This document shows, in pieces, positions 5,184 to 60,930 of a stretch of 64,000 bases of DNA. The notes beneath the pieces are model-generated. The model did not search any database. It was not told where the DNA came from and saw only the letters and a program-made list of their open reading frames with translations. A program made the position numbers and the translations under genes. This DNA comes from Lysobacter sp. K5869. GTDB taxonomy: Bacteria > Pseudomonadota > Gammaproteobacteria > Xanthomonadales > Xanthomonadaceae. Each line of letters starts with the position of its first letter. Position 1 is the first letter of the stretch. The DNA is taken from NCBI RefSeq assembly GCF_018847975.1, contig NZ_CP072597.1, positions 1,651,001 through 1,715,000 of the forward strand, in the 5' to 3' direction.

Positions 5184-5249
5184 TACGTTCGATATGGCCG
5201 CCTGCGGCGCATGGCCGATAAGGGCGGCGTATCAGTAGAATCGACGCGC

Positions 5250-6685: not shown

Positions 6686-6747
6686 CGGCGCTTGCGCCGC
6701 GGCGCGCGCTGTTCTGAAATGGCGGCCTTCGTCCCGGAGCCGTGCCC

Positions 6748-7652: not shown

Positions 7653-7768
7653 GTCGAACGTCGCTTACGCTGGGTTGAGCTTTTCGGCGATCGCCTGAAC
7701 CCCACCGGGTAGGGCGAGCGTTGTCGATCGAAATGGCGGACGAGGTGTCATCGCGCCCGCCACCGTGT

Positions 7769-44460: not shown

Positions 44461-47400
44461 TCAGCCGAAGTACGGCCGCTCGGCCGCGAACAGCAGGCGC
44501 TTGGCGCCGTCGCGCCAGACTTTCGGGCAATCTCTGCCGAGCATCACCACCGCGGTGGCGTAGGCGATGCCGCGCGAGCGCGGGCTGACCTTGCCCAGCG
44601 CGCGTTCGGCCTGTTCGGCCGACGCCGCGCCGCCGCGGCGGACGGCGTCGAAGAACGCGGCGATCTGCGCGGCTTCCTTCGGATCGGTGCGCAAGGCCTC
44701 TTCGCGCAGCCGCGCCGCGTTGTCGTGGTGCTCGCGTTCGGCCAGCGCGGCCAGCGGCCAGGCGCTGGCCGGATCGTCGTCGCCGGTTCCGGCCTGACCC
44801 AGCGCCTGCGCCACCGCGTTCGCCGGCGCGCCTTCGGATGCGGCGACCAGACGCAGCATCCGCGGCCGTTGCAGCGGCACGGTCTTGAGCGCATCCAACG
44901 CGGCGGCCAGATCGCCGGACTTGAGCGCGACATAGCCCCAGGTCGGCGATTCGCGCGGCACCGAGCCGGTCTCGATCGCCATCAAGGTCTTGAGCTGCTC
45001 CGAGTCGGCCGCCGGCAGCAGCGCGGCTTCGCCCATGATCGCGCGCTGCGCGCGCGCGGCGTCGACTTCGATCCACTCGTTGGTCTGCGGCATCTTCGCC
45101 GCCTGCCGCAGCAGCGGCAGCGCCTGATTCCACTGGCCGCGCTCGTTGGCGGCGTAACCGGAGGCGAGCGCGAACCAGCCGTGCTCGGGCCAACGCGCGT
45201 GGCCTTCGTCGAAGGCGCGGTCGCGGGCCGGGGCGTCGGGCGCGCAACGCACCGCGACGTAGCGCAGATCGGCCGAGTCGGGCTTGCGCTCGGAGGCGGC
45301 GCGATGGCGCGCGCAGACTTCGGCGTAAGCGGGCTTGCCCTGCGCGGCGTCTTGTTCGGCGCGCAGCGACATCACCTCGGTCGGCGCGCGGCGCAGGCGT
45401 GCTTCGACCAGCTTGGCGAAGTCGGGTTGGCTCGAGGCCGCGCTCAGCCATTCGGCCAGATGGCGCGAATCGCCGGCGTCCCAGCGCGCGTGCGCGGCGA
45501 TCAGCGCGTTCTTTTCCGCCGCGCTGTCGATCAGTTGCAGCTGATCGGAGGGCGACAGATCGGCGAAGCCCTGCAGCACCCGGCGGTGGCCGCCGCCGCT
45601 TTTGGTGCTGATCTGCTTCGGCGGTTCCTCGAACACGTGATCGGCCGTGGACGAGGTCCAGCGCGGCGCGCCGAGCTTGTTCTCCGGCACGTCGCTGTAC
45701 CCGCCGTAGGCCGCGGTCCACTCCACCAGCGGCGCCGCCGAGGCGATGTTGTAGACGTAGTGCGAGGCGTGCCCGGGGCCATCGCTGTCGAATTCCTCGA
45801 CCACGGCGCCGTCGGCGGTGCGCGCGATCACGTGGTGGCGGGCGCTGTCGGCGAGATCGACGGTGACGTTCTGCAGCGGCGCCACGTCGAACGTGCGGCC
45901 GTCCACGTCCACCCGCATGGGCAGGGCGAGGCCGTTGAGCACGGTGAGCTGGGACACGCCGACCGACGCGCCGACGAACAGCACCGCGCCGACGATGCCG
46001 CCGGCCGCGGCGACGCGCGAGATCGACGGCACCAGGCCGTCGGCGGTCTGGAAGCGGTCCCACCAGCCCAGCTTGGTCTGGCGCTTGCGCGCGCTGCCGG
46101 GCTTGAGCCGCGCGTACTCTTTCGGCGCGCTGGCCGGCGCGTCGGCGGAGGGCGGAGCGAAGCGGGTGTCGGCGGTTTCGGCGCCGGCGGCCGGTTCGAC
46201 AGCGGTTTGCGCGTCGAGGCCGGCGTCCGCGCCGACCGCCGGAGCGGCCGCGATCATGGTGTCGACGGGGCGTTCGTCGTCCGTGTCGCCGCGGCGCCTG
46301 CGCGCGACTTCGTCCTCGGTCGCCAGCAGCGCTTCCAACGCCGCGTCGCGCAGCGCCGCCAGCGGGCCGACGGTGCCGCGCACCCAGGTGTCGATCGCGC
46401 CCAGCCATTGCTGGATGTTGTCGCGGTCGGCCGGCGGCAGGCGGAACTCGCCCAGCGCTCCGGCCCAATCGTCGGCCTTCAGGTACTCGGCGATGCGGCG
46501 ATCCAGTCGAACCTGCGCGGCGTGCGCGTACAGCGTCTCCAGCGTGCGATGCAGCTGATTGGCCGACGCCACCAGACGGTTGAGTTCGTCGGAGGACACG
46601 CGCCGGTCGGCGGTGACCACCTCGTAGGTGTTGACCAGCAGATGATTCGCGTCCTGCAGATCGGCGTGGCTATGGTCGGCGTAATGCAGCACCGCCAACT
46701 GCCCGCGCAGCAGCGCTTCCCACGGCCCGCCCAGCGCGCGCGCCGCGGCCAGATGGACGCTGCGGCAGCGGCGGTCGTGCTCGCGCACTTGCTCGCGCAG
46801 CGGCGCCAGTTCGCCGTCGAGTTGCGCGATCACCTTGGGCAGCTGCTTGGCCGGCAACTCGTCGCCGCGCCAGCGAACCACGCCGCCCGGCGCGCGCAGG
46901 TGGCCGTCGCGCAGCGCTTCCAGGGTGCCGCGTTCGGCTTCCAGTTCGCGCAGGCGCTCCAGCGCGTCGCCGTGTTCGGCCGGGTACAGGCCGGACAGGT
47001 GCGCATCGAGCGCGGCGTCGGCGGGCACCGGGTAATAGAGTTCGTCGGGGCCGTCGTAATCGCGCACGGTCGAGCGGCCGAGGTAGGTGCCGCGGAAGCG
47101 GCGGTTCAGGGCCAGATCGTCGAAGTCGCGGTCCACGCGCTCCAGGCTTTCGGCGATCGGCACCGGCGCCAGCGGTTCGGCGCTGTCGATCATCTCGCGG
47201 GTGATGCGTTCCTTCAGCGCCTGCGCGTCGCGCAGCAGGCTCAGCGCCGGGCGCGGATCGATCTCGCAGGCGATGTAGCTGCGCTTGAGGTTGCGCTCGC
47301 GGTCGCTGTTGGCCGGATGGGTCGACCACATCTGCGGTGGCTGCGCCAGTTCGCTCTTGAATACGCGGTGCTGCTCGCGTCCGTCTGCCGGCAACTGCGG

Positions 47401-48402
47401 CGGTTCGCCGTATTCGGCGTCGGCGAAGACCCGGCGCAGGTGTTCGATCATGCGCGTCTGCACCGCGAACAGATCGGCGACCGGACGCTTGTTGGCGTAT
47501 TCGCGGTTGGCGAAGCCGAGCGTGCGGTTCCAGGCGTCGTCGGCGGCGCCGAGGCGGTGCAGGGCGTGCACCAGCGCGTCGCTGCCGGTCAGCGAGGCGG
47601 CGACCAGATCGGCCTGATATTCCATCTCGCGCGACAGCGCGCGCTGGGCCAGCACCACCAGCCGGAACACCATCTCCACCAGCGAGCGGATCGACCACAC
47701 CACCAGCGACAGAACCCAGCCGACCCAGGCGATGCGGAAGTCGACGCGCGAGAGCCCGCGCAGGAAATCGTCGAACGCATCGCGCTTGGCGATGATGTGC
47801 CCGGCCACCTGCTGGGCCACGTAGACCCAGCGGCCCACCGCCATCGTGCGCTGGGCGAAGTGGCCGAACTCGTGCGCCAGCACCGCCTTGAGCTCGCCGA
47901 GGTTGAGCACGTTGACCAGACCCAGGCCGATCTCCAGATTCTTCTTCGACGGCAGAATCAGATTGAGCAAGGACAAGTCGTAGAACACGCCGGCGTTGAC
48001 CCGCGGCGACAGGAACACGCGGTGCGGCCGCGGCGCGCCGGCCTCGTCGGCCAAGCGGTGCAGGAACGCGAACAGCTCGGGTTGCTCGGCCGGCTTGAGT
48101 TCGAGGTCTTCGCCGCCCGCGCCGCGGCGCTTGAAGATCAGCGCCTTGGCCATGAACACGCACAAGAACGCGGCGCAGGCGCCGGTGATGAGGTTGCCGA
48201 TCACGTTGCCGCCGTCGCCCTGGACCAGGGCCGCGAACAGCCGCCACGCGGTCCAGCCGAACCAGACCAGCAAGGTGAAATAAACGGCGACGAAGCCGAG
48301 CAATCCCAACATGGCCAGCCAGGCGTGGCGGCGGTAGGCGGCGCTGGGCGCAGTCAGTTGCGCGGGCACGGACGCAGGTCCGGCCGGATACATCGAATCC
48401 AT
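44461..48402 (-). CDS. Very long M48-family metallopeptidase with C-terminal repeat region
   Basis: 1313 residues, much longer than usual M48 proteins (about 300-650). Two N-terminal membrane helices (WLAMLGLLGFVAVYFTLLVW, IGNLITGACAAFLCVFMAKA) precede the peptidase domain with ELKAVLAHEFGHFAQ (HEFGH, 177-181) and MEYQADLVAASLTG (third ligand Glu). Residues 280-700 are helical (ELEAERGTLEALRDG); another membrane helix lies near 735 (GGIVGAVLFVGASVGVSQL). The last 450 residues contain a beta domain and TPR-like helices (GQWNQALPLLRQAAKMPQTN). It looks like an integral-membrane protease with a large sensing/scaffold part. It may process secreted or envelope proteins. Confidence 0.85.
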   Translation of the reverse strand: MDSMYPAGPASVPAQLTAPSAAYRRHAWLAMLGLLGFVAVYFTLLVWFGWTAWRLFAALVQGDGGNVIGNLITGACAAFLCVFMAKALIFKRRGAGGEDLELKPAEQPELFAFLHRLADEAGAPRPHRVFLSPRVNAGVFYDLSLLNLILPSKKNLEIGLGLVNVLNLGELKAVLAHEFGHFAQRTMAVGRWVYVAQQVAGHIIAKRDAFDDFLRGLSRVDFRIAWVGWVLSLVVWSIRSLVEMVFRLVVLAQRALSREMEYQADLVAASLTGSDALVHALHRLGAADDAWNRTLGFANREYANKRPVADLFAVQTRMIEHLRRVFADAEYGEPPQLPADGREQHRVFKSELAQPPQMWSTHPANSDRERNLKRSYIACEIDPRPALSLLRDAQALKERITREMIDSAEPLAPVPIAESLERVDRDFDDLALNRRFRGTYLGRSTVRDYDGPDELYYPVPADAALDAHLSGLYPAEHGDALERLRELEAERGTLEALRDGHLRAPGGVVRWRGDELPAKQLPKVIAQLDGELAPLREQVREHDRRCRSVHLAAARALGGPWEALLRGQLAVLHYADHSHADLQDANHLLVNTYEVVTADRRVSSDELNRLVASANQLHRTLETLYAHAAQVRLDRRIAEYLKADDWAGALGEFRLPPADRDNIQQWLGAIDTWVRGTVGPLAALRDAALEALLATEDEVARRRRGDTDDERPVDTMIAAAPAVGADAGLDAQTAVEPAAGAETADTRFAPPSADAPASAPKEYARLKPGSARKRQTKLGWWDRFQTADGLVPSISRVAAAGGIVGAVLFVGASVGVSQLTVLNGLALPMRVDVDGRTFDVAPLQNVTVDLADSARHHVIARTADGAVVEEFDSDGPGHASHYVYNIASAAPLVEWTAAYGGYSDVPENKLGAPRWTSSTADHVFEEPPKQISTKSGGGHRRVLQGFADLSPSDQLQLIDSAAEKNALIAAHARWDAGDSRHLAEWLSAASSQPDFAKLVEARLRRAPTEVMSLRAEQDAAQGKPAYAEVCARHRAASERKPDSADLRYVAVRCAPDAPARDRAFDEGHARWPEHGWFALASGYAANERGQWNQALPLLRQAAKMPQTNEWIEVDAARAQRAIMGEAALLPAADSEQLKTLMAIETGSVPRESPTWGYVALKSGDLAAALDALKTVPLQRPRMLRLVAASEGAPANAVAQALGQAGTGDDDPASAWPLAALAEREHHDNAARLREEALRTDPKEAAQIAAFFDAVRRGGAASAEQAERALGKVSPRSRGIAYATAVVMLGRDCPKVWRDGAKRLLFAAERPYFG

Positions 48403-48659
48403 GTGGTCCCCATTGAGCGTTGGCGCGGCGCGCGGGCCGCGGCGGTGCGTCCGGCCCGCCCGCGGCGGGCGCCCCAGCCGGACGCCGGCCTATTCTGCGC
48501 CGATTTTTGTGACCCGGTCAGCATCGCGTCCGCGACCCCGGTCCGGCCGGGCGGTGGAACGCACCGATCCGCCGGTGCGTCCGGCTCCGCCTTGATGACG
48601 GCCGCCGACGGCCGCATCGTGTCCCGATGTCCGAATTGCGCGCCGCGCGGAGCCTTGCC

Positions 48660-49340
48660 ATGAGTTCGACCGCTTCCAACCCGACCCCCAAGGTCAAGAT
48701 CGACTTCGTTTCCGACGTGGTCTGCCCGTGGTGCGCGGTCGGCCTGAATTCGCTGGAGGAAGCCATCGCGCGGCTCGACGGCGAGGTCGAGGTGGAGCTG
48801 CATTTCCAGCCGTTCGAACTCAACCCGCAGATGGTCGCCGAAGGCGAAAACATCGACGAGCATCTGGCGCACAAGTACGGCCTGGGCGCCGAGCAACTGG
48901 CGCGCAACCGCGAAGCGCTGCGTCAGCGCGGCGCCGCGGTCGGCTTCCGGTTCGGCGACCGCGACCGCATCTACAACACCTTCGACGCGCACCGCTTGCT
49001 GCATTGGGCCGGCACCCAGAGCGCCGACGCCGAGCGCGCGCTCAAGCATGCGCTGCTGAAGGCGTACTTCACCGATGGGCGCGATGTGTCCTCGCGCGAC
49101 GTGCTCGCGGCGGTGGCCGGCGAAGCGGGCCTGGACGCGCAGCGCGCCCGCGCCGTGCTCGATTCCGACGAGTACGCGCAGGACGTGCGCCAGCAGGAGC
49201 GCTTCTATCAAGAGGCCGGGATCAGCGCGGTGCCGTCGGTCATCATCAACGACCGTCATCTGATTCAGGGCGGGCAGCCGGTGGAGCAGTTCGAGGCGGC
49301 GCTGCGGCAGATCGCGGCGCAGGGCGCGGCGGGCGGCTGA
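48660..49340 (+). CDS. DsbA family oxidoreductase (FrnE-like)
   Basis: 226 residues from ATG 48660 with GGAGCC upstream; an ATG at 48627 also exists but lacks a good site. VSDVVCPWCAVGLNSLEEAI carries the CPWC active site near residue 22. HFQPFELNPQMVAEGENIDE, FDAHRLLHWAGTQSADAERA and AGISAVPSVIINDRHLIQGG (cis-Pro loop) are the FrnE/2-hydroxychromene isomerase-like markers. No signal peptide, so a cytosolic thiol oxidoreductase, often linked to stress responses. Confidence 0.92.
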   Translation: MSSTASNPTPKVKIDFVSDVVCPWCAVGLNSLEEAIARLDGEVEVELHFQPFELNPQMVAEGENIDEHLAHKYGLGAEQLARNREALRQRGAAVGFRFGDRDRIYNTFDAHRLLHWAGTQSADAERALKHALLKAYFTDGRDVSSRDVLAAVAGEAGLDAQRARAVLDSDEYAQDVRQQERFYQEAGISAVPSVIINDRHLIQGGQPVEQFEAALRQIAAQGAAGG

Positions 49341-49768
49341 GTCGGTCGTTCGCGGCGCTAGCCGCGTTGGCTTGCGCGCAGGTCCATCGCAACGACGGCG
49401 TCGCCTCGCGCGGCGCCGTTCGTTTTTGCCCGATCGGCTCGAATCGTTTCGCCTGAGCCGCGGCATCGCGCGCGGACGCCGCCGGCGCTTGTGCGCGAGC
49501 GGCGCGCCGGCATAGCATCCGCGCCGCGGCCGCCCCCGGCCGCATCCCTCTCATTGTCTTTGCCAGCCCGGCGTTCGCGCCTGCCAGCCCTCTTTTCCGA
49601 CGTTCCGCGGCGCAGCAACGCGTGCCGTCCGTGGTGACCGCCGCCGCATTCGCGACGAGACGCGCCGAGCGCTTCGCCGCGCCGCCCGCGGCCCGGCCCG
49701 CTTTGCCACATCGCTGCCATCGCGCCCGCCGCAAGCTCCTGGATTCGCCCAACGCCAGGACCGCCGCC
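49341..49768. other. Intergenic region before the Vps62-related gene
   Basis: 428 bases; a terminator sits at 49391-49427. The rest holds no gene I can support. The promoter of the secreted gene at 49769 should be in the right half, but no boxes are clear. Confidence 0.35.
49391..49427 (+). terminator. Intrinsic terminator of the DsbA-family gene
   Basis: AACGACGGCG...CGGCGCCGTTCGTTTTT: an imperfect stem loop with five Ts, about 50 bases past the stop of the oxidoreductase gene. Confidence 0.7.
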
Positions 49769-50776
49769 ATGCTCCGACTCCCCGCCGCCCGTCTTCGCGC
49801 TGCCGTGCGCCTCGCCAGCCTCGGCGCGAGCTTGCTTGCGGCCTCCGCCGCGAGCGCCGCCGGCTTGTCCGCATCCGTCGCCGCCGACCGCGCCGCGCTG
49901 GCCTTGCGCTGGGCGCCGGTGCATTACCAAGACGTCGACCAAACCGGCAGCCACGCGCTCGGCGGCGCCGCCGACTACCTCGCCCGCTACGACTTCGACG
50001 GCGACCTCGACGCGCGCAACAACTGGGACCGCGCCGGCCAAAGCGCCTACCCGCTGGCCGCCCACGCCTATTACTCGGTGGTGGAAACCGCGACCCACTG
50101 GTACATCACCTATCTGTTCTTCCACCCGCGCGACTGGACCGATTCGTTCTTCGACACCGAACACGAGAACGACGCCGAAGGCGTGATGTTCGCCGTCGCC
50201 CGCGACGGCAGCGCCTACGGCACGCTCAAGGCCGCCATCACCGTCGCCCACACCGACTTCTTCTCGTTCGTCCCCGCCGGCAGCGACTGGACCGGCAACG
50301 CCGAGAACGTCGACGGCACGCTGTCGTTCCTGACCTACCAAGGCGCGCCGCACCCGGTGACCGCGCAGGAAGCCAAGGGCCACGGCCTCAAAGCGTGGCC
50401 GGCTTACGACATCAAGGGCGACGGCGTGATCTATTACCCCTCGCTGACGACCGCCGAAGTTCCCTCCGGCCCCGACGACCGCGACGTCAAATACAAGCTC
50501 ATCGATATCTTCGAGGCCGGCGGGATGTGGGCGCAGCGCAACAACCCCACGCTGTTCGCCAGCTACGGCAGCTTCGCCGGCGACAAGAGCGGCGGCTGCG
50601 GCAGCGGCGCGATCGGCTGCAGCGCCAACGCCGCGAACGCACCGTGGGGGTGGGACGACAGCAACGACGGCCCGGGGCGCGGGGCGTTGGCGACGGATCC
50701 GGTGGGGTTGACGATGAATTACTTTCGGATTCCGGAGGCGGTGAGTGGGGCGTATAGCTACAACCCGTATCGCTAA
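49769..50776 (+). CDS. Secreted Vps62-related protein
   Basis: 335 residues from ATG 49769 with AGGA upstream; a signal peptide follows (LASLGASLLAASAASA). YYSVVETATHWYITYLFFHP, RDWTDSFFDTEHENDAEG, and the motifs SFVPAGSDWTG and WPAYDIKGDGVIYYPSL match secreted proteins annotated as Vps62-related in Lysobacter and Myxobacteria. The C-terminal third (KYKLIDIFEAGGMWAQRNNP, GWDDSNDGPGRGALATDPVG) is repeated as a decayed copy at 58101-58375. The RHS gene lies 344 bases downstream, same strand. Function unknown; no catalytic motif found. Confidence 0.8.
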   Translation: MLRLPAARLRAAVRLASLGASLLAASAASAAGLSASVAADRAALALRWAPVHYQDVDQTGSHALGGAADYLARYDFDGDLDARNNWDRAGQSAYPLAAHAYYSVVETATHWYITYLFFHPRDWTDSFFDTEHENDAEGVMFAVARDGSAYGTLKAAITVAHTDFFSFVPAGSDWTGNAENVDGTLSFLTYQGAPHPVTAQEAKGHGLKAWPAYDIKGDGVIYYPSLTTAEVPSGPDDRDVKYKLIDIFEAGGMWAQRNNPTLFASYGSFAGDKSGGCGSGAIGCSANAANAPWGWDDSNDGPGRGALATDPVGLTMNYFRIPEAVSGAYSYNPYR

Positions 50777-51120
50777 CCTAGTTGAAGATGCGCCTTAGGT
50801 GCTGCCGTCTGCAATCGGAAAGTCAAGATACAGCGCGCGTAGATCCGTCGCATTTCCTGTGTGTGTTTTCTAAGCATTTGTCGCGCCTTGCTGAAGAGGC
50901 TCTCTGCGTTCATGCTGAAGCGAGGGCGGTCGGTCCGCATGAGTCATCTGCAGGAAAGCAGTTTGTGATCGAGCATCCATGATTCCTCATGGCTGCGACT
51001 ACGCCGATGGGCAGCGTGGGGATAGGCCTCAAGATGGATGCTCAGTCGTCATCGACGACATGATCTTCGTCATCATCTGAGAGTAGAAGAGCGCAGCGGC
51101 TCGCCGGATTGGAGAAGAGG
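50777..51120 (+). promoter_or_regulatory. Untranslated region between the Vps62-related and RHS genes
   Basis: 344 bases, clearly less GC-rich than flanking core DNA. A palindrome CCATGA-TTCC-TCATGG lies at 50977-50992. GGAGAAGAGG at 51111-51120 directly precedes the RHS ATG. No gene is visible; the RHS promoter presumably lies here. Confidence 0.4.
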
Positions 51121-54100
51121 ATGAACAGGATTTTCGTGAGGATGTGCATGCTCCCGGTGCTTGCTGCAGGCCTGTGGCTAGCAGGATCATCCGCGGCGAC
51201 AGCGCAGTCTTCGTCCTACTACGGAGCGCCCTATCGCCATAATAGCTATGGCGATAACGGACCTCACGGCTCAATCCAGGCCACCGTAGATGCTTGGTGG
51301 AACGACTGGAAGAAACACTGGCCGGACTACGAGCACTGTGGGTATTCGTTCAAGCTGCTCGACCCGAAAACCAACGGCGGCAAAGTGGTCAGCATGTCGC
51401 CGGGCAGTCCATGCAGCGGAACCGCCTACGGCTTCGCGACCGAATATTCCTACAATCCAGATAAGAATCAGGGGCCTCCGAGTTGCCAGGCTCCAGGCAC
51501 GCACTGCGGCAATCCGATCAATGTCACCATCGGCAACAAGTACCAGCGGGAAGACGACATCGAGCCGGTAGCGGGCCTGGCCTTCTATCGGCATTACAAC
51601 AGCCTTGCGTTCACCGACGACGGCCACATCGGCAAGAAATGGACGCACAACTACGATTTTAGGCTGAAGTACATGATCGATTCGTTGGGCGCGAAGACGA
51701 TGGCGCTCATCCGGCCCGACGGAAACCGCGTGGTTTTCAACTATGTGTCCGGTCAGTGGCAGGCGGATGCCGATGTCTACGCGAAGGTCGTCCAACATAA
51801 CGATGCGTCGGGCGCCATCAGCGGATGGACGTATACGCCAAGGGATGGCCGAGAGGTCGAACAATACGACAAGCTCGGACGGTTGTTTCGTGTCGAACGT
51901 TCGGACGGCAGTCTGCTCGATTTCACCTATAACAATGCAATGCCGGTTTCGGGCACCGAAAGCGATTATCTGCTGACGCGGATACAAACCGAGAGCGGGC
52001 GCTCGCTGGTTCTGCAGTACGACACGAATCTTCGCGTCGTCAGCGTCTATGACGTGGCCAACCAGGAATACCGATACGGCTACGATCCCCAGGGGCGACT
52101 GGTTTCCGTCACCTATCCGGACAATAAGCAGCGCCTCTATCACTACAACGAGGCCGCGTACACCAACGGAGCGGATCTGCCCTACGTTTTGACAGGAATC
52201 ACCCACGAAGACGGGCGTCGGTACGCGACCTTTACTTACGGCACGGATGCGCGCGCGCTTTCGAGCGAACATGCCGGCGGCGTCGACAAATTCACCGCCC
52301 AGTACGGCAGCGGCACCACCACGACCGTGACCACGCCCAACGGAAGCACGCAGACGCGGTCGTTCTCGACGATTCTCGGGGTGAAGAAGGCTGCGTCCAT
52401 TTCCGAGCAATGCGCGGACTGCGCAAGCCGGACCATCGCGTACGCGTACGACGCCAATGGCTACCTGGACACCAAGACCGATCCGCGCGGCGCCGTTTCC
52501 GATTACGACTACAACGCGCGCGGCCTGTTGACCCACGTCGCGGAGGCGAAGAGCGCTTCCGGTTCGCTGCGGACGGTGGACACGGATTGGCACGCGGACT
52601 GGGCCGCGCCGATCGACCGCCGCACCTACGACGCCGCGCAAGCGCTGGTCGTGAGCCAGCATTGGACTTACAACGCGAGAGGCCAGGAAGTCACGCGATC
52701 CGAGACGGATCCGGCCACGAACCAAGTGCGCACGACGACGTCGGCTTATTGCGAACCGCAGCAGGTCGTCGACGGGGTTTGCCCGCGGGTCGGGTTGTTG
52801 ACCTCGGTGGATGGCCCCAGGACGGATGTCGTCGACGCGACGAGCTATGTCTATTACCCCGCGGATGCGGCCGATTGCGCCTCTTCGCCTTCGGTTTGTT
52901 CTTATCGAAAAGGCGACCTGTGGAAAGTGGTCGACGCGAGCGGCGCGACCAACGAGATACTGCGTTACGACGCCGTGGGACGGATCTTGTCCTCCAAGGA
53001 CTCGAACGGCGTCGTCACGGATCGGGAATACACGATCCGCGGTTGGCTTTCCAAGATCGCCGTGCGCGGAGCGGTGTCCGGCTCCGAAGCCGACGACCGC
53101 ATCGTTCTGGCGGAGTATTGGCCGACGGGCGACGTCAAGACGCTGACTACCGCCGATGGCGCGATAACGAACTATGTCTACGACGCAGCGGCCCGACTGA
53201 CCGATGTGCTCGACGGCGACGGCAACAAAATCCACTACACCTACGACTTGGCCGGAAACCGAATCAAGGAAGACACGCTGGCCGTCAACGGCGACTTGAA
53301 GCGGACGCTGTCGCGCGTGTTCGACGGCCTGAGCCGGCTCCGCGCGGACAAGGACGCTTCGCAGAACGCCACCGCCTATCGATACGACGCCGGCGGCAAT
53401 CGGGACAAGACGACGGATGCGCTGGGACGCGCGACCGATCAAACCTACGACCCCTTGAACCGGTTGGTGCGCACCCTGCAAGACGTCGGCGGCCTCAACG
53501 TCGAAACCAAATTCGAGTACGACGCGCTCGACCGGCTGACCAAAGTCACCGACCCGAAGGGACTGAATACCGTCTATGCCTACAACGGCTTCGGGGATCA
53601 GACCAGGCTGACCAGCCCGGACACCGGCATTACCGACTACACGTACAACCCCGCCGGCAGGGTCGCGACCAAGCAGGATGCCAACGACGCAGTCCCGCAT
53701 CGTTACACCTACGACGCGTTGGGCCGTCCGAAAGCCGTGTTCTACACCGCCAGCGGACCGGCCGATGTGGAGTACGACTACGACACAGTCAACAGCATCT
53801 GCGCGGCCGGCGAGACTTTCGCGACCGGCCGAGTCACCGCGATGCGCGCCGATGGGACTGAGCTGAAGTACTGCTACGACCGCTTCGGGCAAGTGGCGCG
53901 CAAGGTGCAGATCGTTGCGGGCAAGAGCTTCAACCTGAGTTACACCTACACCCTCGGTGGGCAGCTCAGCACCGTTACCTACCCCGACGGCGCAACGGTG
54001 GACTATGTGCGCGATGCGCAGGCTCGAATCAAGGAGATCGGCGTCAAGCCCAATGGAGGCGTCCGCGCAGTGCTGTTGAGCAATGCGACTTACGAACCTT

Positions 54101-55527
54101 CCGGCCCGATGGCCGGCTGGACCTACGGCAACGGCCGCGTTCTGAGCCGCACCTACGATCTGGATTACCGCGCGAAGACGATCCTCGACAACGCCAGCGG
54201 CGGCCTGTCCTTGGGCTATGGCTACAACACGGTCGGCGAACTGACCGAGTTGAAGGATGGTTTGCAAAGCGCGTTCCAGGCCAAGTACGACTACGACACG
54301 CTCGGTCGGTTGACCGTCACTCGCGATGGTTCGTCCAATCCGCTGGAGACTTATACCTACGACGAAACCGGCAATCGCAAGAGCTTGTTGCATGGCGGTG
54401 TTACCGATACTTATGTCTATCCGGCGGACAGCCATCATTTGAGCGGTGTGGCCGGTGTGGCCCGCGGCTACGACGCAACCGGCAACACCATCACTATCGG
54501 TAGCGCCGACAAGGAGTTCGTTTACAGCGCCAATGATCGACTGAGTCAGTTCAAGCGGGGCGGTATCGTCAAAGCTAGCTATCGGTACAACGCCCTCGGT
54601 GAGCGCGTCGCCATTACCGGCGCCGTGACCAGTACCATCGATACCTACACGGTGTACGACGAGACGGGAAACTGGATCGGTGATTACGACAGCACTGGCG
54701 CGGCTAAGCAGCAGGCGGTGTGGTTAATCGGTGAGCCGGTCGGTTTGGTCGTGGGCAACGGCGGCACGCAGTCTCTGCTCTACGTAGAGCCCGATCACCT
54801 GGGCGCGCCACGTGCGGTGATCGACTCGGGCCGTAACGTCGCCATCTGGACCTGGGATGCCAAGAGCGAGGTATTCGGCAGTAGCCTACCGAATCAAGAC
54901 GCTGATTTAGACGGCACCGCGTTCGTGTTCAACATGCGGTTTCCGGGGCAGCGATTCGATGCTGCTAGCGGATTAGCCTACAACTACTTCCGTGACTACG
55001 ATCCTGCGACTGGTCGATATCTGCAAAGCGATCCGATTGGATTAAATGGGGGCATTAGCACCTATGCCTATGTCAGTGGAAACCCAGTCAGCCGCATCGA
55101 TCCATTTGGCCTGAAGGATTACACGGCTTGCGAAACGCGAGCGCTCCTAGACGAAGCGAAGGCGGATATGTCGGCGCCACTCGTGCCACGCACTACGAAT
55201 GCACTTAGGAATCACGGTGGCCTTGGGAGGTTTGATTTCAAGATGAACCAGCCGAATGATACCTTTGTGGCGCCTTTGGTTGGGAAGCTGTCGGCAGCAG
55301 AATTCGGAAACTTCATAGCGGGTTACTCAGGCATCTATTACGGCGGCCGTACAGGCTTGGCGCTTGTAATCGTCGGCGGTGTCTTACTTGATGCAACCGA
55401 CGCTATGGGGGGGAGCGGAACATTCGACATGGATGCGGATAGCATCAAGGACATTCACAACGGAGCGGTCATTGCCAACATGGAAGTCAACGGCTCACCG
55501 ATCGCGCAGTGCGGATGCTCGAACTGA
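51121..55527 (+). CDS. Secreted RHS/YD-repeat polymorphic toxin-like protein
   Basis: 1468 residues from ATG 51121 behind GGAGAAGAGG; a Sec signal peptide follows (PVLAAGLWLAGSSAATAQS). Residues about 125-200 are a DUF6531-type start (NPINVTIGNKYQREDDIEP). YD repeats run to about residue 1290 (YDANGYLDTKTDP, YDALDRLTKVTDP, YDTLGRLTVTRDG). The RHS core ends with FRDYDPATGRYLQSDPIGLN (DPIGL from residue 1304) and RIDPFGL; after it a unique 137-residue tip (1332-1468) contains GRFDFKMNQPNDTF and AEFGNFIAGYSGIYYGG, resembling in my memory polymorphic toxin type 44. Sec export plus an RHS cage implies a surface or released toxin. A coupled small membrane gene follows. Confidence 0.85.
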   Translation: MNRIFVRMCMLPVLAAGLWLAGSSAATAQSSSYYGAPYRHNSYGDNGPHGSIQATVDAWWNDWKKHWPDYEHCGYSFKLLDPKTNGGKVVSMSPGSPCSGTAYGFATEYSYNPDKNQGPPSCQAPGTHCGNPINVTIGNKYQREDDIEPVAGLAFYRHYNSLAFTDDGHIGKKWTHNYDFRLKYMIDSLGAKTMALIRPDGNRVVFNYVSGQWQADADVYAKVVQHNDASGAISGWTYTPRDGREVEQYDKLGRLFRVERSDGSLLDFTYNNAMPVSGTESDYLLTRIQTESGRSLVLQYDTNLRVVSVYDVANQEYRYGYDPQGRLVSVTYPDNKQRLYHYNEAAYTNGADLPYVLTGITHEDGRRYATFTYGTDARALSSEHAGGVDKFTAQYGSGTTTTVTTPNGSTQTRSFSTILGVKKAASISEQCADCASRTIAYAYDANGYLDTKTDPRGAVSDYDYNARGLLTHVAEAKSASGSLRTVDTDWHADWAAPIDRRTYDAAQALVVSQHWTYNARGQEVTRSETDPATNQVRTTTSAYCEPQQVVDGVCPRVGLLTSVDGPRTDVVDATSYVYYPADAADCASSPSVCSYRKGDLWKVVDASGATNEILRYDAVGRILSSKDSNGVVTDREYTIRGWLSKIAVRGAVSGSEADDRIVLAEYWPTGDVKTLTTADGAITNYVYDAAARLTDVLDGDGNKIHYTYDLAGNRIKEDTLAVNGDLKRTLSRVFDGLSRLRADKDASQNATAYRYDAGGNRDKTTDALGRATDQTYDPLNRLVRTLQDVGGLNVETKFEYDALDRLTKVTDPKGLNTVYAYNGFGDQTRLTSPDTGITDYTYNPAGRVATKQDANDAVPHRYTYDALGRPKAVFYTASGPADVEYDYDTVNSICAAGETFATGRVTAMRADGTELKYCYDRFGQVARKVQIVAGKSFNLSYTYTLGGQLSTVTYPDGATVDYVRDAQARIKEIGVKPNGGVRAVLLSNATYEPSGPMAGWTYGNGRVLSRTYDLDYRAKTILDNASGGLSLGYGYNTVGELTELKDGLQSAFQAKYDYDTLGRLTVTRDGSSNPLETYTYDETGNRKSLLHGGVTDTYVYPADSHHLSGVAGVARGYDATGNTITIGSADKEFVYSANDRLSQFKRGGIVKASYRYNALGERVAITGAVTSTIDTYTVYDETGNWIGDYDSTGAAKQQAVWLIGEPVGLVVGNGGTQSLLYVEPDHLGAPRAVIDSGRNVAIWTWDAKSEVFGSSLPNQDADLDGTAFVFNMRFPGQRFDAASGLAYNYFRDYDPATGRYLQSDPIGLNGGISTYAYVSGNPVSRIDPFGLKDYTACETRALLDEAKADMSAPLVPRTTNALRNHGGLGRFDFKMNQPNDTFVAPLVGKLSAAEFGNFIAGYSGIYYGGRTGLALVIVGGVLLDATDAMGGSGTFDMDADSIKDIHNGAVIANMEVNGSPIAQCGCSN

Positions 55528-55835
55528 TGAATGCCGCGATCGCATTTATTGCATTCGCGGTGGCTTCCACCGGCATAGGACTATTTGTTCTTCGTCCGTG
55601 GGTGCGGCAAATTGCAGTTTTGATCTTGGCAGGCATTGCAATTTTTACAGTTGTCTTTTCGATGAATGACATGAGAGAGCACGGCTCTGAAGCCAAGAAG
55701 CTGGGTCGCTCAGCGGATTATATCGCTGGGATGGTTGAGCGCGATCAGAGAATGATGCCGAAGCGAGCTATCATCTTCTTCAGCGTAGCCGGGCTGGCAT
55801 TGGTTGCGTTAGTCAGTGCGCGAAGAAAGCCCTAA
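55527..55835 (+). CDS. Small membrane protein, candidate immunity to the RHS tip
   Basis: 102 residues from ATG 55527, which overlaps the RHS stop (TGATG). Three hydrophobic segments: AAIAFIAFAVASTGIGLFVL, IAVLILAGIAIFTVVFSM and AIIFFSVAGLALVALVSA, with a polar stretch in between (DMREHGSEAKKLGRSADYIA). Translational coupling directly behind a polymorphic toxin gene and small size fit an immunity protein that neutralises the tip at the membrane. No family recognised. A terminator follows at 55851. Confidence 0.65.
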   Translation: MNAAIAFIAFAVASTGIGLFVLRPWVRQIAVLILAGIAIFTVVFSMNDMREHGSEAKKLGRSADYIAGMVERDQRMMPKRAIIFFSVAGLALVALVSARRKP

Positions 55836-55850
55836 TCGATGAAACTAGAA

Positions 55851-55887
55851 GAAGCCCCGCCCCTAACAGGCGGGGCTTCTTTTTTTA
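55851..55887 (+). terminator. Intrinsic terminator of the RHS operon
   Basis: GAAGCCCCGCC-CCTAACA-GGCGGGGCTTC followed by seven Ts. It closes the RHS and immunity-candidate unit and overlaps the end of the minus-strand remnant at 55885. Confidence 0.93.
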
Positions 55888-56100
55888 GCGGCAGGGCTGT
55901 TGCTTTTGCAGCACGATATCGATCATCTGCATCACGTAGTGCTGCTGCGCCTTAGGCAGGCGGATAATGCGTTCGAGCTGTTGTTGCAGCTTGGGTGCCG
56001 GTCCGCGCTTGCCGGTGGTGCGTGCGGCTGGTGCGCCTTCGGGTCTTCCGCGGTGACGCCGAGAGTGCTGGTCAGCCGCCAGCAGCAACGAGATCGGCAA
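55885..56100 (-). pseudogene. 3' remnant of an HTH (XRE-type) regulator
   Basis: The frame GKRGPAPKLQQQLERIIRLP, then KAQQHYVMQMIDIVLQKQQ is the tail found after the DNA-binding domain of many XRE regulators ('KRGPxSKLQQQxERIxxLPKAxQxFVxxMIDxVL'). The preceding bases still encode ARRLPISLLLAADQ, the end of an XRE domain, but its first helices are absent. So only the tail remains. It reads against the RHS gene and ends inside the terminator T-run. Confidence 0.55.
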
Positions 56101-56138
56101 GCGCCGCGCCAGCCCGTTGTTTCGCGTAATAAGCGTTC

Positions 56139-56330
56139 ATGTCTTGCGCCCCGGGGAGAGTCAGATCAACCAACGGCGCGTATGTGCGTGTGCGCTTCGC
56201 GCACTCACCCACGACCATGCTGGTGTACCGGCGCGAGTACCTGTCGTTCAAGGCGATGGATGCGCTGCGATACGCCATGGAAGGGCGCGGGCGATTGCGG
56301 ATCGGCCCCGAGTTTCTCCATCCAGATTAG
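56139..56330 (+). pseudogene. Fragment related to the protein encoded at 58965
   Basis: 63 residues. YLSFKAMDALRYAMEGRGRL corresponds to YLSFKVMDALWYALEHQGGL in the complete protein at 58965-59543, and RIGP to RLGP; the DNA is similar as well. The frame stops soon after, where the intact gene continues for about 90 residues. It is a truncated paralogue left in the RHS region, although a short functional protein cannot be excluded. Confidence 0.5.
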
Positions 56331-56457
56331 TCTTGGCTATGTGGACTTCAAGCCGGTGTGGATCGGTAGCGTGACGGTTGGGCCGGGGCTCGGTTTAAGC
56401 TTGAGTGAGTACCCGACCAACACGGTTGCCAGCCCCGAGATCTGTTAGGATCTGGAT

Positions 56458-56877
56458 ATGGCGTCCAGTGTTCTGCCCGCTCTTGCGCTCCTCGTTCCGG
56501 CCGGGGTTCTCCTGCTGGTTCGAGGGATGCGTTTATATCGATACGAGTTGGGTGAGCGCTCTTTTTCGGTCAAATTGTTCGGCAGGTACGAACTTGTCTC
56601 GATCAGATTTGAAGAGATGCTTGAGCTCAAAGTGGCGAAATGGTGGGACGTGACGTCGGCTGGCTGGTCTCCGCTTCTGTTGAAGGATCACTTTGCTCTT
56701 GAAGTAGTTGTTATTAAAAGAAAAGACGGGCTTTACCGACAGGTTGTCGTGACTCCAGACAACCCTCGAGAGTTTGTTGCGCTGATCGCTGTGCGTAAGA
56801 GGGCTTTGGAGCGCGTTGAAGCTCTACGTGACGAGACTGATCGAAAAGCGGCGGCATCGGCCGAATATCGAAAGTAG
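56458..56877 (+). CDS. Membrane-anchored PH-like small protein
   Basis: 139 residues from ATG 56458, with AGGA eight bases upstream. One hydrophobic helix (VLPALALLVPAGVLLLVRGM) is followed by a basic and beta-rich domain resembling a bacterial PH domain: YRYELGERSFSVKLFGRYEL, EVVVIKRKDGLYRQVVVTPD, then a C-terminal amphipathic helix. The DNA is less GC-rich than the core. It sits behind a truncated remnant, with its own start. Function unknown; an orphan immunity role is only a possibility from its place in an RHS region. Confidence 0.6.
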   Translation: MASSVLPALALLVPAGVLLLVRGMRLYRYELGERSFSVKLFGRYELVSIRFEEMLELKVAKWWDVTSAGWSPLLLKDHFALEVVVIKRKDGLYRQVVVTPDNPREFVALIAVRKRALERVEALRDETDRKAAASAEYRK

Positions 56878-56983
56878 GCTCGCCGACGCTAAGAGGTGGC
56901 GTGCCGAGGGGTTCTGAAATTTAGGGTCAATACCGAATTCGGCATCGGCAGGCCTAGAGTAAGTGTAGGAGGCACTCGCTCCG

Positions 56984-57487
56984 GTGAAGCAGCCAGATTA
57001 CCTATCAGTTGATAGGTCTATCTTTTCCATGCGCAACTTAAGCCGTGCATTCGTCAGTGTTTGCGTGGCTGTGGTCGCGATATATGTGATGAGCGCATTG
57101 ATGGCGCGCCGTGAGCGGGCGGATTCTGTATTGGCGCAGGAGCTGGGGCCGCAACTCTCGCAGTTTTCCGTTTCCAAGGGGGATCAGGAGGTTGGGACGC
57201 TGGAACTGATCAATCACGGCGGGCCCGTGGGGGCCACCAGGGATTTCAAGTCGCGCCGCTCCGCGGATCAGGTGGCGGCTGACTATTCGAAGCAACTGGA
57301 AGAATATGGCTGGAAGGTTGTCGAGTCTCACACTGACTCGCGCCATCCGTTGTTCGTTCGATTTTGCAAAGGCGTCACTGGAGTCGATCTAACCATATGG
57401 CAGAAAGCCGGCGAAGCCTCCTATCGAATCGCACTGCTGCGCAACGGTAAAGATGGTGGCAAGGCTTATTGCCAGATCGCTCCATAG
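56984..57487 (+). CDS. Hypothetical protein with N-terminal membrane helix
   Basis: 167 residues from GTG 56984; an internal ATG at 57029 (MRNLSRAFVSV) may be the real start (152 residues) as the membrane helix FVSVCVAVVAIYVMSALMA begins right after. The soluble part contains DYSKQLEEYGWKVVESHTDS and LTIWQKAGEASYRIALLRNG, alpha/beta in style. Lower GC than the core. Second of three small same-strand ORFs after the RHS unit. No family recognised. Confidence 0.6.
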   Translation: MKQPDYLSVDRSIFSMRNLSRAFVSVCVAVVAIYVMSALMARRERADSVLAQELGPQLSQFSVSKGDQEVGTLELINHGGPVGATRDFKSRRSADQVAADYSKQLEEYGWKVVESHTDSRHPLFVRFCKGVTGVDLTIWQKAGEASYRIALLRNGKDGGKAYCQIAP

Positions 57488-57585
57488 ATTTCGTATGGCT
57501 GCCGATGCTCTTTGCGCTACGCTGCGCAGTGCACGTGTCTTGTTATGAACGATAAGCGGCATTTCGGTCAGATCTCGATGTAGAG

Positions 57586-58026
57586 GTGATTGTGGCTGCT
57601 CTAAATGGCATCTTGGTTCGTCGCTATTCCCCAAGCAATACCCTGAAGCAACCGGTATTTTTGTATGACCCTGAAAAATTTTTTCTGTCTCGGCCTGTGG
57701 ACAGCAATGAAAAGGCTCAAGGCTGGTTGATTGACAGCGAACTGGTGATCTCAGGGGCTAAATGGGTTGTCTTTTTCGTGACTGACGAGAAGTGTGTTGG
57801 GCTAAATGAGCACATTTTCCGGATGAATGACAGGGGGCTGCAATGCAATCATCACAAGGGAGCCGTCCTGTCGAAATTAGCGATTAAAGACAAACAGATC
57901 AGCACTTCTCTTGTCTACCTCACCCCATGGTGGCGCTATATCTGGGATGACGGCAGTCACCCAGACTTGCAATTCCCCTTGGGATATTTTCTTGAGCAAT
58001 GGCTTTTGCCCATTGAAAATACGTAG
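57586..58026 (+). CDS. Hypothetical protein, AT-rich, RHS-region orphan
   Basis: 146 residues from GTG 57586 preceded by TAGAG (GTG 57592 is an alternative). PVFLYDPEKFFLSRPVDSNE, WVVFFVTDEKCVGLNEHIFR and YFLEQWLLPIENT give a compact soluble protein with many aromatic residues. It is one of the least GC-rich genes of the window, which suggests foreign origin. No family recognised; in size and setting it resembles orphan immunity genes of RHS clusters. Confidence 0.6.
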   Translation: MIVAALNGILVRRYSPSNTLKQPVFLYDPEKFFLSRPVDSNEKAQGWLIDSELVISGAKWVVFFVTDEKCVGLNEHIFRMNDRGLQCNHHKGAVLSKLAIKDKQISTSLVYLTPWWRYIWDDGSHPDLQFPLGYFLEQWLLPIENT

Positions 58027-58100
58027 ACCTTCAGCGGGTCTCTACCCGCAGCTTAGAGCGCCATCGGAGAAAACCGACGAATCTGGATCGCCGGCTTGCG

Positions 58101-58375
58101 CGATGACCGCGACGTCAAATACAAGCTCATCGACATTTTTGAGGCCGGCGGCATATGGGCGCGGCGCAACAACCCCACGCTGTTCGCGAGCTACGGCAGC
58201 TTCTCCGGCGGCAAGAGCGCCGGCTCCGGCAGCGGCACGATCGGTTGCAGCGCCAACGCCGCGAACGCGCTGTGGGGCTGGGGCGACAGCAACGATGGCG
58301 CGGGGCGTTGGCGACCGATCCGGTCGGGTTGACGATGAATTACTTTCGGATTCCGGAGGCGGTCCGTATCGCTGA
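58101..58375 (+). pseudogene. Decayed second copy of the Vps62-related gene's 3' end
   Basis: From GATGACCGCGACGTCAAATA onwards the DNA matches 50475-50776 closely (KYKLIDIFEAGG, RRNNPTLFASYGSFSGG, GCSANAANALWGW). A seven-base deletion near 58300 breaks the frame and a 22-base deletion near 58363 joins GGCGGT to CCGTATCGCTGA. No start or signal peptide precedes it. It shows that the RHS segment is bounded on both sides by related host sequence. Confidence 0.85.
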
Positions 58376-58430
58376 GGGCGCGGGCGCTTTCGTTCGACGG
58401 CGTCTTGTGTCCACACTGACGCCGTAGCCA

Positions 58431-58856
58431 GTGGGAGCGCATGTCTTGATCGTTACCGAATTCCGGTCAGCGAACGCTCGGCCCAAGCGGTGGAGCTATT
58501 TCCTCGCGATCGCCTGTGCAGCAGGATTGTGCGCGGTCGTGATGTCGGTGCTGCGCGCCGGTTATTACGTTTGGATGGATCTGCGGCCTGAGATGGGCCC
58601 GGGCATGTTCATTATTTTCTCGCCGTTGTTCGCCGCGGCGTTCGCTGTGCTGGCGGTGTTGTGCGAAGGCGTGCTGGCCTGGGCGGCGCCTTCGCTCCCC
58701 GCGCGTAAGCCTTTATGGATCGGAGCGAGTTATGCCTTCGTCCTGGCGGGGTTGATCCGACCGGAACTGCTCGTGCTGGTTTTGGTCCTCAACCCGGCGA
58801 CGTTGCATCTGTTCTTCGCGATGCGGGAGAAGCGGCGCTCGGCGACAGAGCGCTGA
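58431..58856 (+). CDS. Small integral membrane protein
   Basis: 141 residues from GTG 58431; the exact start is uncertain. Helices: YFLAIACAAGLCAVVMSVLR, MFIIFSPLFAAAFAVLAVLC, and SYAFVLAGLIRPELLVLVLV in a four-helix pattern, then a basic tail (MREKRRSATER). No family recognised. It lies 56 bases after the decayed Vps62-related copy. Confidence 0.6.
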   Translation: MGAHVLIVTEFRSANARPKRWSYFLAIACAAGLCAVVMSVLRAGYYVWMDLRPEMGPGMFIIFSPLFAAAFAVLAVLCEGVLAWAAPSLPARKPLWIGASYAFVLAGLIRPELLVLVLVLNPATLHLFFAMREKRRSATER

Positions 58857-58964
58857 ACCCGCGACCGCGCCGCGCGCCTGCTGTCTTTGACGCGTTCTAT
58901 CGCCAGCGCTAGCATCGGCGTCGCCACCGGCAACCTCCGCGGCCACGACGCCCGCGCGAATCGC

Positions 58965-59543
58965 ATGATCCCCTCGCAAGTGCATCAGGAAGTCGCTAGG
59001 CTCAGCGGCTATCTCGACGGCATCGCCGTGTCCACGAATTATCCGCGCCGCTACTGCGCCGGCGCTTTTCTGATCGAACCCGTAGCGCCCGACGCTTGCA
59101 TCGAGCAGGCGATCAGGGACTACAAAAAAAGTTGGTGCCCCGACCTGGCGTTCGACTCGCGTCAGCGGCAACGCTTGCCAAGCGGGCTAAGCAGCTTGGA
59201 ATCCGACATCCAACCGCTCGTGCTCCGCGAGGCGCCCGGCCTCGATGCGGTCGGCTTGGAAAACCTGCGCAAGTACCTGTCGTTCAAGGTGATGGACGCG
59301 CTGTGGTACGCCCTGGAGCATCAGGGAGGGCTGCGGCTCGGGCCCTGGAACGCAGTGGAAGTCTGGCGACTGGAGTCGCCACCCGAGCCCGACTCCTCCG
59401 ATTGCATTTACTTCTGCGTCCGCGTGGAACAGGCGTTGGTCGTCTTGCAGTTCAACGACGATCTCAAATGGCGGCAAGCGGTCGAGAGCGGCAGGATCGA
59501 CCCCGCAGCCCAGCGGGCGGAGGCATTGGCGCAATCCGGCTGA
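58965..59543 (+). CDS. Hypothetical protein with a truncated paralogue at 56139
   Basis: 192 residues from ATG 58965 (MIPSQVHQEVARLSGYLDGI); TTG 58887 gives a longer but less convincing form. Mixed alpha/beta with TNYPRRYCAGAFLIEPVAPD, ESDIQPLVLREAPGLDAVGL, the duplicated YLSFKVMDALWYALEHQGGL and FCVRVEQALVVLQFNDDLKW. No signal peptide. Because a piece of it recurs behind the RHS operon, it may belong to the RHS locus, for example as an immunity-type protein; that is inference. Confidence 0.65.
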   Translation: MIPSQVHQEVARLSGYLDGIAVSTNYPRRYCAGAFLIEPVAPDACIEQAIRDYKKSWCPDLAFDSRQRQRLPSGLSSLESDIQPLVLREAPGLDAVGLENLRKYLSFKVMDALWYALEHQGGLRLGPWNAVEVWRLESPPEPDSSDCIYFCVRVEQALVVLQFNDDLKWRQAVESGRIDPAAQRAEALAQSG

Positions 59544-59656
59544 CTTTGCCGACTTGGCTTTGCCGATGCTGTCCTGCACAAAGAAACACACGCTTTTCGT
59601 CCCAAACCGGGCCTGCGGACATGTTCCGTTGATGGACTGTTCACATCTAAAAAAAG

Positions 59657-59674
59657 AGAATGATCGTTCATTCT
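59657..59674. promoter_or_regulatory. TetR-type operator before the efflux operon
   Basis: AGAATGA-TCGT-TCATTCT, a perfect inverted repeat with seven-base arms and a four-base spacer, 51 bases before the adaptor ATG. AcrR/TetR repressors of RND pumps bind such sites. No TetR gene lies in the window next to it, so its regulator is elsewhere or unrelated. Confidence 0.6.
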
Positions 59675-59724
59675 ACGCTCCACCCGCAGTCCGTCCCGAC
59701 CGCGCCCACACTTGAGGCTTCCCC

Positions 59725-60918
59725 ATGCCGTCGCGCAAGTCCATGTCCTATAAGACAATTTTCACTGTTTCCGCGCTTGCGCTGGCCCTGGCGGCCTGCG
59801 GTAAGGGCGGCGATCAACAAGGCGGCCCCGGTGGGCCCGGCGGGCAGAAGGGGCAGGTCACGGTCGTGACGCTGAAGCCCGAGACCGTGACCCTGACCCG
59901 CGAATTGCCGGGCCGGACCAGCGCGTCGCTGGTGGCCGAGGTGCGGCCGCAGGTCAACGGCATCGTCGAGAAGCGTCTCTTCACCGAGGGCGGCTTGGTC
60001 AAGGCCGGGCAGCCGCTGTATCAGCTCGACGACAAGACCTACGCGGCCGATGCCGAGAACGCCAAAGCGACGCTCGCGCGCGCCGAAGCGGCGTTGAACT
60101 CCGCGCAGCTCAATGCGCGCCGTTCCAGCGAGCTGGTCAAGATCGACGCGGTCAGCAAGCAGGACGACGAGAACGCCACCGCCACGCTCAAGCAGGCGCG
60201 CGCCGATGTCGCCGCGGGTCGCGCTCAGGTGTCCAGCACCGGCGTGATCCTCGGCCGCGCGCGCATCGTGTCGCCGATCACCGGCCGCATCGGCAAGTCG
60301 GCGGTTACCGCCGGCGCGTTGGTCACCGCCAATCAGGCCGACGCCTTGGCGGTGGTGCAGCAGACCGATCCGGTGTTCGTCGACATCAGCCAGTCCAGCG
60401 CCGAGTTGCTGGCGCTGCGCAAGCAGATCGCCGCGGGCACGCTGAGCGAAGCGAGCACGCCGGTGACGATCCTGCTGGAAGACGGCAGCAAGTACCAACA
60501 CGACGGCAAGCTGGCGTTCTCCGAAGTCACCGTCGATCAGGGCACCGGCAGCTTCCTGCTGCGCGTGGTCGTGCCGAATCCCGACAACATCCTGATGCCC
60601 GGCATGTACGTGCGCGCGCTGGTCGGCACCGGCGTGCGCCAGAACGCGCTGCTGGTTCCGCAGCAGGGCGTGACCCGCGATCCCAAGGGCAACGCCACCG
60701 CGCTGGTGGTCAACGCCAAGGGCGCGGTCGAGCCGCGCGAGGTGCAGGTCGGTCAGGCGCTCGGCGACAAGTGGCTGGTCGAAGGCGGCTTGAAGGCCGG
60801 CGACAAGGTCATCGTCGAAGGCTTGCAGAAGATCGGCCCCGGCATGCCGGTGGACGCGACCGAAAAGGGCGCCGCCCCGGCCAAGCCGGCGGCCCCCGCC
60901 GCCGCGCCGAAGCAGTAA
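59725..60918 (+). CDS. RND efflux periplasmic adaptor (AcrA/MexA-like lipoprotein)
   Basis: 397 residues. Lipobox LALALAACGKGG marks a lipoprotein. The order beta-barrel, lipoyl, helical hairpin is clear: LTRELPGRTSASLVAEVRPQ, VNGIVEKRLFTEGGLVKAGQ, LYQLDDKTYAADAENAKATL (hairpin), ARIVSPITGRIGKSAVTAG, and NILMPGMYVRALVGTGVRQN. It joins the inner-membrane pump to an outer-membrane channel. The TetR-type site upstream suggests drug- or stress-responsive control. The RND pump gene begins 12 bases after its stop. Confidence 0.93.
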   Translation: MPSRKSMSYKTIFTVSALALALAACGKGGDQQGGPGGPGGQKGQVTVVTLKPETVTLTRELPGRTSASLVAEVRPQVNGIVEKRLFTEGGLVKAGQPLYQLDDKTYAADAENAKATLARAEAALNSAQLNARRSSELVKIDAVSKQDDENATATLKQARADVAAGRAQVSSTGVILGRARIVSPITGRIGKSAVTAGALVTANQADALAVVQQTDPVFVDISQSSAELLALRKQIAAGTLSEASTPVTILLEDGSKYQHDGKLAFSEVTVDQGTGSFLLRVVVPNPDNILMPGMYVRALVGTGVRQNALLVPQQGVTRDPKGNATALVVNAKGAVEPREVQVGQALGDKWLVEGGLKAGDKVIVEGLQKIGPGMPVDATEKGAAPAKPAAPAAAPKQ

Positions 60919-60930
60919 TCGGAGACATTC

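Follow-up and report, generated by a model that had tools for sequence, protein, structure and literature searches.

Organization of the RHS locus

The stretch analyzed, hereafter the window, consists of 64,000 nucleotides of the genome of Lysobacter sp. K5869 (assembly GCF_018847975.1, contig NZ_CP072597.1, positions 1,651,001 to 1,715,000 of the forward strand), and the subject of this study is an RHS toxin locus within it, at which the 3' end of the gene preceding the RHS gene is present twice. Coordinates are those of the window, and features lie on the forward strand unless otherwise indicated. The locus begins with an intact gene of 335 residues (49769-50776), defined by its open reading frame (ORF), family scans and relatives, and referred to here as the upstream gene. 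Its last 304 bases (50473-50776, stop codon TAA) are the left copy of the repeat (L). It is followed by an RHS gene of 1,468 residues (51121-55527), a small membrane gene (55527-55835) and a series of small ORFs and gene remnants. The right copy (R, 58101-58375), recognized by repeat search, alignment and tree, is a decayed version of the same gene end with deletions of 7 and 22 bases and a TGA stop codon. Behind it are the small genes p141 (58431-58856) and p218 (58887-59543) and an RND efflux membrane-fusion gene (59725-60918), which was identified by family match and, given its conserved position, is taken as the right border of the site.

The protein encoded by the upstream gene gave no Pfam or NCBIfam match, and the name "Vps62-related" used in the first-pass annotation of this DNA was not confirmed. 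Relatives of the gene were found in Micromonospora, Hymenobacter, Nostoc and others, with no Pfam family, and two distant relatives of the protein showed sub-threshold similarity to the NPP1 family.

A duplicated gene end flanks the RHS module

The global alignment of L and R comprised 304 columns with 253 matches, 22 mismatches and two gaps of 7 and 22 bases, and the identity outside the gaps was 92%. The local alignment score was 404, against a maximum of 31 among 200 shuffles. In the repeat search the pair was recovered as 207 bases at 90% and 67 bases at 97% identity, with a spacing of about 7.62 kb, and it was the longest direct repeat found within 46000-64000. This agrees with the first-pass annotation, in which the repeated gene end, its position and both deletions had been described. 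The stop codon of R (58373-58375) is located at the same place as that of the upstream gene, and the 7-base gap puts R out of frame. R has no gene body before it, whereas L is the end of an intact gene; the genome contains the upstream gene intact once, plus the remnant R only. Similarity to the upstream gene 5' of R was not significant at any of 13 lengths (at the best, 40 bases, the score was reached by 1 of 100 shuffles, and at the others by 8 to 94), and a homology of R extending further upstream was therefore rejected. A score of 40 obtained for the stretch before R was discarded as an overlap of that stretch with itself.

The guanine plus cytosine (GC) content was 0.579 for 50777-58097, 0.658 in R and 0.62-0.64 in the two genes behind R, in accordance with the AT-richer interior previously described; the lowest value, 0.47, was that of the small ORF p146. 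No integrase or transposase family was found among the ten window proteins scanned, a set in which not all the small remnants were included, and the earlier remark that no transposase is present thus held for these proteins.

The site in related genomes

Gene presence was searched in 60 genomes, namely the window's own and those of 59 relatives (designated by G numbers), 19 of which belong to the same genus. The upstream gene was found in 13 of the 60, the window's genome and 12 of the 19 genus relatives, with one copy in each. A second full copy was present in none of the 60 genomes; two full tandem copies, with the RHS module elsewhere, had been named in the first-pass annotation as an observation that would contradict it. 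The same RND efflux gene follows the upstream gene in all 12 relatives, and RHS lies between both genes in 10 of them (G015, G002, G009, G001, G006, G003, G017, G008, G010, and G019). None of these 10 sites, that of the nearest relative G015 included, contains the L/R repeat. In the other two, G004 and G007, RHS is absent and, as the first-pass annotation had anticipated, a single intact upstream gene occupies the site, behind which immunity-type genes or what is left of them are found (p218 and a stop-interrupted p167 in G004, a broken p141 in G007). Two further genomes lack the upstream gene. The order is RHS, p141 homologue and RND gene in G018, and dsbA, p141 homologue and RND gene in G005, which has no RHS there either. 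A tree of the RND block grouped G004 with G009 and the window with G015, and both G009 and G015 carry RHS.

Since 10 of the 12 relatives, including the nearest, have RHS at this position, its presence is most simply read as ancestral, with losses that left immunity-type genes behind. The possibility that RHS is a newcomer to the site is ruled out by the same count, and therefore the repeat does not mark its first arrival. In this regard, the initial proposal that the repeat reflects acquisition of an RHS module by recombination within the upstream gene must be restricted: as a sign of RHS acquisition as such it is not supported, and the addition of a particular module, anchored in that gene, is the part that we favor.

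The interval from the upstream gene to the RND gene was estimated at 5.4-7.7 kb in relatives with RHS and at 1.2 and 1.8 kb in those without it. That of the window, 8.9 kb, is the longest of the 13, and R divides it into an RHS-bearing part of 7.3 kb and a part of 1.35 kb resembling the RHS-free state, with a change of GC content at this boundary.

Divergence and phylogeny of the two copies

L and R were 92% identical over 263 shared columns, while identity to the four nearest relatives ranged between 86 and 89% for R and between 92 and 94% for L. Both copies were sisters in the tree (92/92), with branch lengths of 0.086 for R and 0.0076 for L, the former being 11 times the latter. An origin of R in another species was set aside given this grouping with the window's own L, which leaves room for other placements. 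Of 21 differences between the copies, 18 were assigned to the R branch, half of them (nine) synonymous and nine nonsynonymous, the latter at positions that are fixed in the four nearest relatives. The synonymous share (9/18) compares with 22-36% expected under neutral decay (P between 0.008 and 0.16 in twelve mutation settings), and it is a weak hint that R may have been coding for part of its life. The TGA stop codon of R is common to nine of the 12 relatives, the four nearest included, in contrast to the TAA of L.

The scores of the intergenic bases after L or R against those of the relatives were mostly within those of 20 shuffles. Values slightly above the shuffle maximum were obtained for L against G006 (30, maximum 24) and G007 (25, maximum 24), and for the R side against G007 (31, maximum 29), the last match being inside p141.

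The RHS gene and the genes behind it

The RHS gene is a mosaic. It matched the families of the RHS repeats (PF05593, 1.7e-44), DUF6531 (PF20148, 2.2e-14) and Rhs_assc_core (TIGR03696, 4.2e-22). Residues 1-480 were 53-75% identical by blocks to G018 and also resembled G017 and G001, in contrast to the nearest relatives. For residues 801-960 the identity was 95-98% with G009 and 85-88% with G015; residues 1121-1280 had their best match (78-79%) in another RHS of the window's genome; and the last 142 residues were 87% identical in P0002, an RHS protein with an overall identity of 35%. From this mosaic structure it follows that exchange is real. RHS repeats were found in at least seven places of the window's genome (150 of 174 candidates scored).

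The comparison with P0002 delimited a variable C-terminal part, the presumed toxin, after the DPFGL motif (55099-55527), which has been exchanged between different RHS bodies. It had no Pfam family, so that a possible resemblance to a known toxin family found no support there, and no sequence relative in the PDB, and its predicted structure, a model of modest quality (mean pLDDT of 71, from 4 sequences), gave no PDB match at E 0.001. The ATG of the membrane gene at 55527-55835 shares one base with the RHS stop codon (TGATG, 55525-55529), an arrangement from which this gene is probably the cognate immunity gene. A small membrane gene also overlaps the stop of a related toxin in G008, with weak protein similarity (z 3.1, 1 of 300 shuffles being as good). 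The start of the RHS protein (51121-51230) resembles by eye a signal peptide. In G018 (region L113, about 3816-8258), the RHS with the closest N-terminal type is split in two frames, by either a frameshift or an assembly fault.

Several orphan genes of immunity type, by their position, are located behind the current toxin/immunity pair: p167, p141 and p218, with p139 and p146 as weaker cases, and it is likewise from position that an immunity role may be attributed to all five. The first element behind the pair is a short ORF on the reverse strand (55885-56100), possibly the regulator remnant of the first-pass annotation; it alone was looked at in this respect and had no family match. It is followed by a remnant of a p218-type gene (56227-56309), 77% identical over 83 bases to 59263-59345, and by the small ORF p139 (56458-56877), with weak relatives in two of the 59 other genomes, one of them a broken copy that follows RHS at this site in G001. 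The gene p167 (56984-57487) has homologues directly behind RHS in G002 and G003, and its start is overlapped, in another frame, by a toxin tail (56932-57009) which resembles the RHS toxin ends of these same relatives. The identity was 59% over 27 columns for G003 (E 0.012 with whole proteins; 2e-5 with toxin ends alone, for 4.1 kb searched without composition correction) and 50% over 20 columns for G002 (E 0.002). A similar stretch lies before the stop-interrupted p167 of G004. It follows from the toxin tail before p167 that displacement occurred in the window locus.

The next ORF, p146 (57586-58026), had no relative in the 59 other genomes and nine (37-45% identity) in a large protein set, the named ones being from Xanthomonas and Pseudoxanthomonas. 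Homologues of p141 precede the RND gene in G018 (behind RHS), G005 (no RHS) and G007 (broken), and one is also present behind a second RHS locus in G003. The database protein for p218 has 192 residues, with a start near 58965. A homologue of p218 overlaps an RHS stop in G014, and p218 adjoins the RND gene in G002 and G004, in which p167 and p218 are neighbors. Six regions with p218 homologues were fetched, three with RHS and three without it. In region L156 of G017, a stretch just before the p218 homologue (6229-6378) weakly matched the toxin region of the window (E 0.008) and is perhaps a toxin remnant.

Origin of the repeat

Considering all the above, we lean, with modest confidence, toward an additive exchange of an RHS module anchored in the upstream gene, by which the old gene end and the orphan immunity genes would have been pushed downstream, the former decaying there. 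In the genus, the DNA from the upstream gene to the RND gene would have served for a long time as a site at which RHS toxin modules are exchanged, and the window would contain two stacked versions of it. The first would be RHS-bearing, with the toxin, its immunity gene and older leftovers; the second, made up of R, p141 and p218, would match an RHS-free version that has only immunity genes. The RHS module, whether incoming or duplicated, may have paired with the resident upstream gene and have been added, the old version not being replaced. A possible route is a single crossover with a circular piece; alternatively, one end may have been homologous and the other illegitimate, falling some 300 bases short of the gene's 3' terminus. 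This older terminus would thereby have been severed from its gene, moved downstream and left to decay. The immunity genes behind R would have been kept, and they may still protect against relatives with the old toxins. It must be noted that the repeat lies within the upstream gene, that is, upstream of the module; the join itself we infer.

Several points weigh against this additive exchange. The sister grouping of L and R fits a local duplication too, and the alternative tree joining L with G015 was not rejected (p 0.216). For the bases after R, no clear homology was seen with the bases that follow the gene in the relatives. The identity of its core to G015 and G009 indicates that the RHS gene is native at least in part. 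A search of 55536-59650 with 18 RHS sequences found none of the core fragments by which displacement is usually recognized. Sequence of p218 type is present on both sides of R, and p146, R and p141 can also be seen as a single insert placed between p167 and p218, as these are neighbors in G002 and G004. Finally, all the genomes compared are from other species.

A local tandem duplication of all or part of the upstream gene, with most of the second copy deleted later and the RHS exchange as a separate event, had also been considered in the first-pass annotation. We regard it as unlikely. The grouping of L and R is what it would produce, and the hint of past coding in the synonymous changes of R also speaks for it. 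However, two alleles that had separated while still intact genes, and were joined afterwards, would likewise explain that synonymous excess, a second copy is absent from all 12 relatives that have the gene, and the presence of RHS and AT-rich genes between the copies would require an extra deletion and an extra insertion. We find it distinctly improbable that illegitimate recombination placed p146, R and p141 between p167 and p218 as a small insert in which the gene end was carried along as a passenger. The adjacency of p167 and p218 in G002 and G004 and the broken p141-type sequence after the gene in G007 would agree with it, but the GC content of R, p141 and p218 (0.62-0.66) differs from that of p146, and the scanned proteins included no mobile-element family. 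An island might also have integrated site-specifically at the gene's 3' terminus and later lost its integrase. This would leave an intact gene end on one side and a repeat of it on the other, as observed, but it is very improbable in view of the scanned proteins, none of integrase or transposase family, and of the 10 relatives with RHS at the site and no repeat.

Flank repeats at other RHS regions

A total of 81 RHS regions from all 20 genomes were analyzed (L118 and L018 were left out); as four pairs overlap, they correspond to 77 or 78 distinct loci, which are not every RHS locus of the genus, weaker RHS matches having been omitted. The window was the clear case in this survey. Beyond it, matches between flanks were obtained in 11 regions (10 loci), and seven loci were inspected. 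The flanking repeats of L155, L192 and L200 resemble parts of what we take to be a small transposase family. The matches in L163 (tRNA-like), L160 (a paralogue) and L182 (intergenic) were not counted as candidates, and those of L183, L021 and L024 were of up to 44 bases.

The second candidate was found in G016 (L195/L153, with matches at L195 1724-3287 and 9056-11186). Upstream of RHS, an 80-residue ORF ends there in approximately 53 bases that are found again, at 91% identity, behind RHS; farther on there is a second copy, at 72% identity, of a 253-base segment of the RHS 5' flank that ends about 300 bases short of RHS. Both copies behind RHS keep the same order and are followed by a p218 homologue. 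In the genome of G016, the 53-base stretch had no other match (40 of 214 candidates scored) and the 253-base stretch had two weak partial ones (40 of 109 candidates scored). This second stretch is a 21-base tandem array; its score was 101, while block shuffles of the element reached at most 34. That the flank is such an array and the copy of the gene end is short also counts against the additive exchange.

We suggest, as a tentative and rather doubtful extension, that sequence just upstream of RHS, in the window the end of an ordinary gene, could act as the homology arm by which complete RHS modules are inserted in tandem instead of being swapped. Recombination between L and R could then drop the toxin and keep the older immunity genes, giving a locus with two states, armed or, as in G004 and G007, immunity-only; G016 would be a second and older case at another locus.

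Comparison with known systems

How toxin/immunity loci change their toxins without self-harm is debated. Published models propose that a new module is placed ahead of the old one, whose immunity genes are retained, but the join is seldom visible. Four publications are compared below on the basis of parts of their text. Jackson et al. (2009; PMC2935791) described sequential insertions at RHS loci that leave displaced leftovers downstream, and proposed a circular intermediate with a single crossover. The toxin tail left at p167 is like this displacement of RHS C-terminal parts, but in that system RHS core supplies both the homology and the leftovers, whereas the repeat of the window is the 3' end of the upstream neighbor and no core fragment lies downstream. 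Vibrio type VI secretion system (T6SS) clusters have orphan immunity genes behind the current pair, as in the window, with the upstream region as the proposed anchor and the old effector 3' end shifted back (PMC5361080, 2017); unlike in the window, no duplicated anchor is described in the portion of that work considered. For effector swapping, a dominant breakpoint at the 3' end of the neighboring vgrG has been reported (PMC11751169). The recombination edge at the 3' end of a gene beside the effector gene is shared with our locus, but the neighbor in that report, as far as those passages go, is a T6SS part and the effector is replaced, while the neighbor in the window is no known secretion gene and its end is duplicated. 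In contact-dependent inhibition (CDI) and Rhs loci, orphan toxin/immunity modules accumulate behind the main gene as they do here, and tandem duplication was proposed as a means by which immunity is not lost (PMC3150448). According to the text compared, those orphans mostly keep toxin fragments, in contrast to the mainly immunity-type genes of the window.

As far as these parts of the sources go, the process appears to be covered already by published models, and the difference would lie in the duplicated upstream flank of a non-toxin neighbor as a visible mark. No title among the matches listed in a literature search referred to a duplicated flanking-gene end at an RHS locus, which is no proof of absence. 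If the additive exchange is true, the addition would have left a physical mark, namely the duplicated end of a non-toxin gene with a set of immunity genes on either side, and this mark could be dated and tested in strains.

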